A stretch of 64,000 nucleotides of DNA from Actinomycetota bacterium (GTDB lineage: Bacteria; Actinomycetota; Actinomycetes; Nanopelagicales; Nanopelagicaceae): NCBI GenBank assembly GCA_947463725.1, contig CANHRM010000002.1:1-64000 (forward strand). Direction: 5' to 3'. Shown piece by piece: positions 60,419-63,995 of this stretch. Both the position numbers and the translations under genes were made by a program. The notes beneath the pieces are model-generated. The model was not told the origin of the DNA and did no database searches. It was given only the letters and a program-made list of their open reading frames with translations. Within the stretch, counting starts at the first letter, position 1; every line of letters starts with the position of its first letter.

Positions 60419-61609
60419 TTACTTGATTGCGGCTTGAAGAGCAGCAGCGCGATCGGTCTTTTCCCAAGTGAATTCGGCTAGCTCGCGACCGAAATGTCCG
60501 TAGGCGCTGGTCAGGGAATAAATCGGACGCAAAAGATCAAGATCGCGAATGATCGCAGCTGGACGAAGATCAAATACTGACAAAACAGCATCTTGAATTT
60601 TCGAAACTGGCACTTTCTCGGTTCCAAATGTTTCAATAAAAAGACCAACCGGTTGGGCTTTACCAATTGCATATGCAACTTGAACTTCACATCTTGAGGC
60701 GAGACCCGACGCGACGATATTTTTAGCAACCCATCGCATGGCGTAGGCAGCAGATCGGTCAACTTTCGAGGGATCCTTTCCGCTGAAAGCTCCGCCGCCA
60801 TGACGAGCCATGCCACCGTAAGTATCAACGATGATCTTGCGACCGGTTAGGCCAGCATCACCCATCGGTCCACCGATTACGAAACGACCAGTTGGATTAA
60901 TCAAAGTGCGTAGATCCGATTTCGGTAAATCAATATCGGCTAGGACCGGATTAATCACTAGATCAATAATCTCTGGTGTTAACTTTTTAGCCACATCGAC
61001 ATCAGCGCTATGTTGAGAAGAAATAACAATTGTGTTCAATGCAATGGCCTTATCTCCATCATATTCAATCGTTACCTGAGTTTTTCCATCTGGGCGCAAA
61101 TACGCCAACTCGCCCGATTTACGAACTGCTGATAAGCGTTGCGCCAATTTGTGAGCCAAAGAAATCGGCAACGGCATAAGCTCTTTGGTGTCTTCGCAAG
61201 CGTAGCCAAACATCAAGCCTTGATCGCCGGCACCTTGTAGGTCCAGTGGATCAACTGAAGAATCTAATCTTTTCTCGTAAGCATCATCAACGCCTTGAGC
61301 GATGTCTTGTGACTGTTGTCCGATTGAAAGTGAAACACCGCAAGAATTTCCGTCAAAACCCTTATCTGATGAATCGTAACCAATCTCTAAAACCGTATCA
61401 CGTACGATGCTCATGACATCGGCGTAACCATTCGTAGTTACTTCGCCAGCAACATGTACTTGACCAGTAGTGATTAGCGTTTCAACCGCAACGCGCGACT
61501 TAGAATCTTGACTCAGAAGCGAATCGAGAATTGCATCAGAGATTTGATCTGCGATCTTATCTGGATGACCTTCAGTGACAGATTCAGAAGTAAATAGGCG
61601 CTTTGACAT
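60419..61609 (-). CDS. metK: S-adenosylmethionine synthase
   Basis: [52 protein letters not shown]. Confidence 0.98.
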
Positions 61610-61613
61610 TGGG

Positions 61614-62798
61614 TTAATTTAACTTATCAATGACCAGATCGAGTAATTGGCCAGCTAGTGTCGCTTTATTACCCTTACCAACTGGTATCTCTTTACCATC
61701 TGCTGTTATAAAGACACCTTGCGTTGAATCACTACCGAATATTTCACCAGTCGAGACATCATTTAGATAGATCAGATCTAAGCCTTTTGCAATCAATTTG
61801 CGATTAGCTTCTGCAATATTCAACGAAGTTTCAGCCGCAAAACCAACAATAATTTGACGCTGCTTTCGCTGTGCAATCTGGGCCACTAAATCAGGATTCT
61901 CAACTAGCGAAATCTCACGATATGAATCCTTCTTCAATTTCTCCGCGCCGACCTGCGTAGGCCGCGCATCTGCGACAGCTGCTGCCATTACTAGTAAATC
62001 AGTATTGCTGAAATGATTATCAAGTTCGATTTCTAATTCTCTCGCACTCTCAACTCGAACAACAATCGCTCCTACGGGATCAGGCAGATTTACATTGGCA
62101 CTTAAGATTGTGACATCAGCGCCTCGGTCGAGAGCTGCTTGTGCTATCGCATAACCTTGTTTGCCAGAAGATCTATTTCCGATATATCTAACCGGGTCAA
62201 TTGGTTCACGAGTGCCACCTGCGGTCACCAAGACATGCTTTCCTAGGAAATCCTGGGTCTGTGAAATTACAGAGGTTAAATAGGAAAGAATTTCAGATGT
62301 CTCGGGCAATCTACCGATACCCGTATCACTTCCAGTAAGTCGTCCAGTAGCTGGTCGCATCACGTGAAATCCGCGTTCTTGTAGCAACGCAATGTTCGCA
62401 ACTGTTGCTGGGTTATTCCACATATTTGGATGCATCGCTGGAATCAAAACCTTAATAGCGCTACTCGCAAGAACCAGATTGGTTAATAAATCATCTGCGC
62501 GACCTATTGCAATACGGGCAATTAGATCTGCAGTCGCTGGAGAAATTAAAATTAGATCGTTCTCGGCAGCCAATTTTACGTGCCGAACTTCATCAACTGA
62601 TTCCCAAACTTGAGTCGTTACTTTTTTGCCAGAAAGTGCTTCCCAAGTGGCGCTTCCGACGAAGTTAAGTGCCGAAGGCGTTGGTACAACGGTAACGTCG
62701 TAGTTGCGTTCTTGCATACGACGCAAAAGATCGCAGGACTTATAGGCCGCAATTCCACCACCTACGCCAAGAATTACTTTGCTAATTCGTTTTGGCAT
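61614..62798 (-). CDS. coaBC: Bifunctional phosphopantothenoylcysteine decarboxylase/synthase
   Basis: [63 protein letters not shown]. Confidence 0.96.
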
Positions 62799-62825: not shown

Positions 62826-63074
62826 TTAAGCGGTTGGCTCGAGATTCTCGATAGTTAGTAAACCTTCATTGATTTCACGAAGGGCAATTGAAAGTGGCTT
62901 CTCGTGGACGTGGGTCTCAACTAGTGGACCAACATACTCAAGTAAACCTTCGCCCAGTTGTGAGTAATAGGCATTGATCTGACGGGCACGCTTTGCAGCG
63001 TATAGAACCAAGCTGTACTTAGAACCGGCCTTATCGAGAAGTTCGTCGATAGGTGGATTTGTAATGCCGTCCAT
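62826..63074 (-). CDS. rpoZ: RNA polymerase omega subunit
   Basis: [34 protein letters not shown]. Confidence 0.95.
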
Positions 63075-63128: not shown

Positions 63129-63995
63129 TCAAGAGGCCAAGGATACCAGTTCAGCCAGAACCTGGGTTACCGAGTGATTAACGATGCGATGGTCGAAGTT
63201 GGGAGCGTGAGCGAGTTCCTCCTGCGCCAATTCAAGGCGATGTGCCCGTCGTTCGGCTGAGTCAGTACCACGAGCCTCAAGTCTCGTTACCAGCTCTTCC
63301 CATGATGGCGGCTCTAGAAATACCAGTATCGCTTCTGCACTGACCTTTCGCACTTGCTCGGCACCAGCAATATCGATTTCCAACAAGACATTCTTTCCTT
63401 GTACTAAAGCATCTTCTACTTGGGCTTTAGGAGTTGCATATTTGGCGCCAGCGAATTGCGCCCATTCCAGGAAGTCACCGGCGCTTTTTCGTGCTTCGAA
63501 TTCCGAATCGGTTATAAAGAAATAGTCGATACCTTCATGTTCATTGTGACGAGGAACTCGAGTTGTCGCACTTATCGAAACATAAAAATTTGATTGCTTT
63601 CGAAGTTCTTTGGCAACAGTACTTTTGCCAACTCCCCCTGGCCCTGACAGGACTAACAATTTTCCACGTTCAATTAGAGTTGGTGTAGCAAATTCAGCTA
63701 ATAGGGCTGGTAATTGTTTAGCACCTAAACCCTGTATGCGACGCGTTGGTGAAATATTTAGTCGATCCATAACCGAACGCGCTCGTACTTTTCCAACGCC
63801 AGAAATTGATTCCAAAAGTTCGAATACTCGCATTTTCGCAACTGCTTCATCGATCTTGCTCAGTTCGAATACTTGGCTCAACGAGAACTCACTACTTTTG
63901 ATCTGAGCTTTTACTTCGGCTCGTCGTTTTCGTGACGCGGCCGCCTTGGCTAGAGCACGCGCACGATCTTCAGGCGAAAGTAGCGGTGGTTGCAT
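63129..63995 (-). CDS. gmk: mIHF-guanylate kinase fusion protein
   Basis: aa ~1-107: PPLLSPEDRARALAKAAASRKRRAEVKAQIK...VFELLESISGVGKVRARSVMDRLNISPTRRIQGLGAKQLPALLAEFA (actinobacterial IHF); aa ~110-288: LLVLSGPGGVGKSTVAKEL...SATTRVPRHNEHEGIDYFFITDSEF (guanylate kinase), uninterrupted ORF. Confidence 0.93.
   Translation of the reverse strand: MQPPLLSPEDRARALAKAAASRKRRAEVKAQIKSSEFSLSQVFELSKIDEAVAKMRVFELLESISGVGKVRARSVMDRLNISPTRRIQGLGAKQLPALLAEFATPTLIERGKLLVLSGPGGVGKSTVAKELRKQSNFYVSISATTRVPRHNEHEGIDYFFITDSEFEARKSAGDFLEWAQFAGAKYATPKAQVEDALVQGKNVLLEIDIAGAEQVRKVSAEAILVFLEPPSWEELVTRLEARGTDSAERRAHRLELAQEELAHAPNFDHRIVNHSVTQVLAELVSLAS

Follow-up and report, generated by a model that had tools for sequence, protein, structure and literature searches.

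The studied actinobacterial integration host factors, mIHF of Mycobacterium tuberculosis (Rv1388) and sIHF of Streptomyces coelicolor (SCO1480), are stand-alone proteins of about 105 amino acids. The bacterial guanylate kinase Gmk is represented by Rv1389, the structures 1znw and 1s4q, and the family model TIGR03263. Guanylate-kinase domains joined to other domains are also found in the MAGUK proteins (DLG4, MPP5, and CASK), eukaryotic scaffolds in which the kinase domain binds protein and does not act as an enzyme.

The gene described here encodes a complete mIHF domain with the basic H2TH residues kept and the same gene neighborhood as the studied mIHF/sIHF proteins, but the domain forms the N-terminal third of a 288-residue enzyme. 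Its Gmk likewise is a complete kinase, with substrate and P-loop residues kept and a matching fold, but it bears an N-terminal DNA-binding domain. MAGUK proteins are not closely related to mIHF-Gmk. No report of an mIHF-Gmk fusion was found in the open-access literature searched, which gives partial coverage; the fusion is apparently undescribed there, yet it is built from two known neighbors, and fused mIHF-Gmk proteins must already be present in public databases.

The fused gene and its locus

Within the window, by which we mean the whole 64,000-nucleotide stretch that was analyzed, the fused mihF-gmk gene occupies positions 63129–63995 on the minus strand, with an ATG start and a stop codon inside these coordinates. 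The list of open reading frames shows no internal stop in this frame, which encodes 288 aa and is the same in all genus relatives with the locus. The mIHF domain (actinobacterial integration host factor, H2TH; 63690–63986, minus strand) matches NF041260 (actino_IHF) over model positions 3–101 of 102 with 118 bits against a curated cut-off of 60 (hmmscan, NCBIfam; 121 bits in the search of the genome); it also aligns from end to end with the solved structures 4itq (S. coelicolor sIHF, 4e-26) and 6tob (M. tuberculosis mIHF, 2.5e-22). The guanylate kinase domain (63138–63665, minus strand), complete and with its catalytic residues kept, matches TIGR03263 (guanyl_kin) over positions 1–177 of 180 with 208 bits against a cut-off of 160. 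Pfam matches of the 288-aa protein (hmmscan) are H2TH_5 PF22525 at 92 bits and Guanylate_kin PF00625 at 143 bits (7e-42 in the search of the assembly). The initial annotation had described one frame with a near-complete mIHF domain, a linker of a few residues, and Gmk; the single frame stands, with both profiles above cut-off, the mIHF domain proves to be complete, and the linker is indeed short, at about eight residues between the two domain models (63666–63689, minus strand).

The stand-alone form of about 105 aa is not what is seen here, with mIHF fused to Gmk in one frame. Because NCBI types NF041260 as an equivalog_domain (TIGR03263 is an equivalog), we take the stand-alone form as typical of mIHF and not as defining it, and what we claim is the domain rather than a free-standing mIHF.

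The mIHF-Gmk gene fusion is real and fixed in the genus. Among the matches listed, the frame is open for at least 289 aa in all 86 same-genus genomes with a match, and likewise in all those matched in a further search of the genus; several of these genomes are single contigs, 99–100% complete, with a single mIHF match each, and genus members without a fusion match are incomplete assemblies. Proteins of similar length with both domains, which the initial annotation had proposed looking for, thus occur throughout the genus members with the locus. It had also named a stop and restart in close relatives, or a separate mihF in the genome, as observations that would speak against fusion; no same-genus genome examined has a stop and restart between the domains, and profile searches of the window assembly (78% complete, 50 contigs) found one mIHF, one Gmk, and no second mihF. 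One genome of the genus (G210) carries, besides the fused frame, a partial second copy of 235 aa ended by a contig edge, the sole such case. That an assembly or sequencing error joined two genes might be argued from the incompleteness of the window assembly and from an apparent fusion in G845 (see below) that proved to be an assembly gap. Against this, the frame recurs unchanged across dozens of independent assemblies, of which several are complete, and the junction DNA in the window contains no ambiguous base. The uninterrupted frame in genus relatives, including complete single-contig genomes, rules out an artefact, whose probability we place next to nil.

Downstream of the fused gene lie rpoZ, encoding RNA polymerase omega and next to it (62826–63074), coaBC/dfp (61614–62798), and metK (60419–61609), all open reading frames on the minus strand, followed by priA; pyrF, pyrD, and carAB lie upstream. 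These names come from recognition and, for the first three, also from gene order. The rpoZ-dfp-metK order that had been noted as M. tuberculosis-like is thus seen downstream of the fused gene, and the gene order around the mIHF-Gmk locus is that around Rv1388-Rv1389 in M. tuberculosis. When mihF was deleted in that species, polar effects made it necessary to supply gmk and rpoZ in trans (PMC6155035), so the genes are co-expressed even where they are separate.

Distribution and evolutionary history

We surveyed loci from 16 genera of the order, classed with profiles built from fused proteins, with some genera represented by one to three loci. The gene is fused in 10 of the 16 (g1, the window genus, and g25, g26, g27, g29, g32, g33, g35, g37, and g39), and mihF and gmk are separate in the other six (g28, g30, g31, g34, g36, and g38). 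Linkers of the fused proteins vary in sequence and in length, from 8 to about 25 residues. In g33 (L062, L065, and L067) the linker is much longer than in the window, at 24–25 residues, and holds KLLSNLG. GTDB contig matches came from actinobacterial metagenome genomes, several of them lake-derived, including BACL15 and LanE43. Four metagenome genomes titled Bifidobacterium breve (L036, L038, L040, and L047) carry the order's fused gene at 62–92% identity and are evidently mislabelled.

When an alignment of fused proteins was searched against 395 genomes across the class, unbroken frames turned up in two further places: family f36 (genera g75, g82, g103, and g142), which is probably Microbacteriaceae and has genomes of 2.8–4.3 Mb, and, within family f34, genus g102. 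Inspection of individual loci upheld the fusion in twelve from f36 and two from g102. These proteins share the window's domain order and have short linkers (about 12–25 residues), and as in the window assembly the fused mIHF is the only mIHF-type match over or near the cut-off in these genomes. They differ in a more divergent mIHF part (56–81 bits) and, in f36, in the P-loop AGPTAVGKGT. Additional mIHF matches in f36 genomes are weak (20 bits or less) and mostly in short frames; they fit chance or ribosomal protein S13, the latter by inference, and we set a second mIHF in f36 aside. Searches of complete genomes from fused lineages found no free mIHF-type protein. With its recurrence in relatives, f36, and g102, the fusion is not unique to the window genome.

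In most other actinobacteria searched, mihF and gmk are separate neighbors, often one stop codon apart and often in the same frame, and in the best full-length matches the two domains are set apart by a stop codon or a change of frame. Matches with one stop inside were classed as separate adjacent genes, and long tblastn matches in Actinomyces, Scrofimicrobium, and Schaalia were rejected as fusions for a stop or frame change between the genes. A phylum-wide search of 397 genomes added only one candidate, G845 of family f90 (L171, G845:C45), in which a scaffold gap filled with Ns gives the appearance of a fusion. Because of the stop or frame change seen between the domains elsewhere, the ancestral state, as read from these comparisons, is two adjacent genes, mihF then gmk.

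In an RpoB tree of 49 genomes, the three fused groups lie apart and at least four changes of state are needed; the tree of the mIHF+Gmk gene also needs four. The trees point to at least three fusion origins in actinobacteria, in the order, in f36, and in g102, and by the RpoB tree the f36 and g102 fusions would be separate in origin from the window's. Within the order, the earliest branches of the RpoB tree have separate mihF and gmk, and g30 and g34 are placed among fused genera, yet have separate genes; the careful RpoB tree pairs the two as sister groups, weakly supported (81/76). A single clade of all fused lineages in the order is rejected on RpoB (p-AU 2.7e-5), and fission or repeated fusion therefore occurred within the order. 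The nesting of g30 and g34 among fused genera suggests gene fission, and the shortest reading on RpoB is one fusion and one later fission within the order; the gene tree accommodates two fusions in just as few steps. The separate genes of g34 (L084, L085, and L086) and g30 (L059, L087, and L088) meet in tight stop-start overlaps such as ATGA.

Sequence constraint and predicted structure

Estimated from six close relatives in which synonymous sites are near saturation, so that the values are rough, pN/pS is 0.080 for mIHF, 0.076 for Gmk, and 0.133 for the linker, the least conserved part among them. By these ratios, both halves are under strong purifying selection. In the 39 fused proteins, invariant Gmk columns include the P-loop GPxxVGK, S140, S142, T144, T145, R146, R149, and E152, as well as Y158, E177, Y186, E206, R238, R242, and R253, and position 208 is Asp or Glu. 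In the mIHF part R25, G68, G91, and Q94 are invariant, and K29, R71, R85, and R86 are Lys or Arg throughout. The roles of these catalytic and H2TH residues are established for guanylate kinases and H2TH proteins. That this is the sole gmk in the 78% complete assembly suggests that the Gmk domain must be active.

Structure prediction, one of the checks put forward in the initial annotation, gave two well-folded domains in an AlphaFold model of the 288-aa protein (mean pLDDT 94.9, pTM 0.71). The block of lowest pLDDT (74) falls at the linker, and the scores fit two stable domains whose predicted relative placement is unsure. Foldseek with this model finds Gmk, with M. tuberculosis the best match, and the closest solved relatives of the C-terminal part are M. 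tuberculosis Gmk 1znw/1s4q.

Interpretation of the fused protein

We favor, with a probability of roughly 80%, a single bifunctional mIHF-Gmk protein, arisen by mihF-gmk fusion, that would be the cell's only source of both activities in a 1:1 ratio. Loss of a stop codon or a small frameshift would have joined the ancestrally adjacent, co-directional genes. The N-terminal H2TH domain would bind and bend DNA like stand-alone mIHF, and the C-terminal domain would phosphorylate GMP to GDP. Because these would be sole copies made strictly 1:1 in one chain, much guanylate kinase would be expected on the nucleoid; we infer both activities, the nucleoid location, and the ratio from family membership. 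If one chain is translated, every mIHF molecule carries a nucleotide kinase, the levels of the two are equal, and GDP is synthesized on DNA. The data can be accounted for without allosteric coupling. The mIHF of M. tuberculosis is essential and ranks in the top ten proteins by abundance (PMC6155035); by analogy, so high a level would be surprising for a protein tied 1:1 to a housekeeping enzyme and counts against the bifunctional protein.

Whether the joining itself matters is the sole point on which a sub-case of the bifunctional reading, with about even chances in our estimate, departs from it: genes one stop apart would fuse easily, the product would be tolerated, and the only gain would be a shorter operon. 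The ancestral arrangement, in which mihF and gmk often share a frame and are parted by just one stop codon, speaks for such a neutral event, as do linkers that are short and poorly conserved and the two genera of the order whose genes are separate with stop-start overlaps, so that separation is viable. Cargo on mIHF is evidently tolerated as well, because in Mycobacterium smegmatis the essential mIHF was replaced by mIHF-EGFP or other tagged versions, including HaloTag, with growth similar to wild type (PMC10028186). Drift seems an insufficient explanation for at least three origins followed by long fixation in entire genera and in a family, although repeated fusion is made likelier simply by the shared gene order, which tempers that argument. 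Convergent fusion in distant groups is also what would favor a functional coupling. In that case GDP/GTP supply would be tethered to the nucleoid, DNA binding by mIHF would respond to nucleotide or (p)ppGpp at Gmk, or self-associating Gmk would let mIHF bridge DNA. Each of the 18 genomes examined, among them the window genome, encodes a RelA/SpoT-type alarmone enzyme, but such enzymes are widespread, which makes this weak evidence. In several Gram-positive groups (p)ppGpp is known to target Gmk (Liu et al. 2015, as cited in PMC6892785), but M. tuberculosis Gmk is reportedly regulated unlike that of other Gram-positives (PMC6892785). The pTM of the model, the dip in pLDDT at the linker, and the variable sequence and length of the linker, which give no sign of a conserved interdomain interface, further argue against coupling, which we regard as unlikely. 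We consider it quite improbable that evolution has repeatedly produced a device by which the architecture of the chromosome follows guanine nucleotide or alarmone status, either because kinase-bound nucleotide or ppGpp changes how mIHF binds DNA or because self-association of Gmk converts a monomeric bender into a bridger; nucleotide-nucleoid coupling is speculation. The repeated independent fusion of the same pair makes an mIHF-guanylate kinase functional link directly testable.

Production of free Gmk as a second product, by an internal start or by cleavage of the linker, also seems to us improbable. The window gene has an in-frame TTG at KLLVLSG, the only start codon in its junction stretch that was scanned, and many relatives have start codons near the junction; in a number of the fused ones mIHF is immediately followed by an ATG, and a few of the start codons have a purine-rich stretch ahead of them. 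Their positions are scattered and vary from one relative to the next, and neither the window gene nor its closest relatives have the best-placed ATG. The two internal starts proposed in the initial annotation fare poorly: relatives do not share the TTG, which in the window gene is not preceded by a Shine-Dalgarno-like sequence, and the ATG of MDRLN encodes the Met that is the usual residue there in the H2TH motif. In the junction stretch scanned across fused relatives, none of the internal starts is both conserved and preceded by a Shine-Dalgarno-like site, and a second product from such a start is not supported. A missing site is a weak argument in this organism, because the main start codon of the fused gene also lacks one and looks leaderless.

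Just past the end of the window (L002:3996-4012), a few bases before the ATG at 63993–63995, lies TAGATTTA, which overlaps the pyrF stop region and is kept in close relatives. It resembles a leaderless promoter, putatively that of the fused gene.
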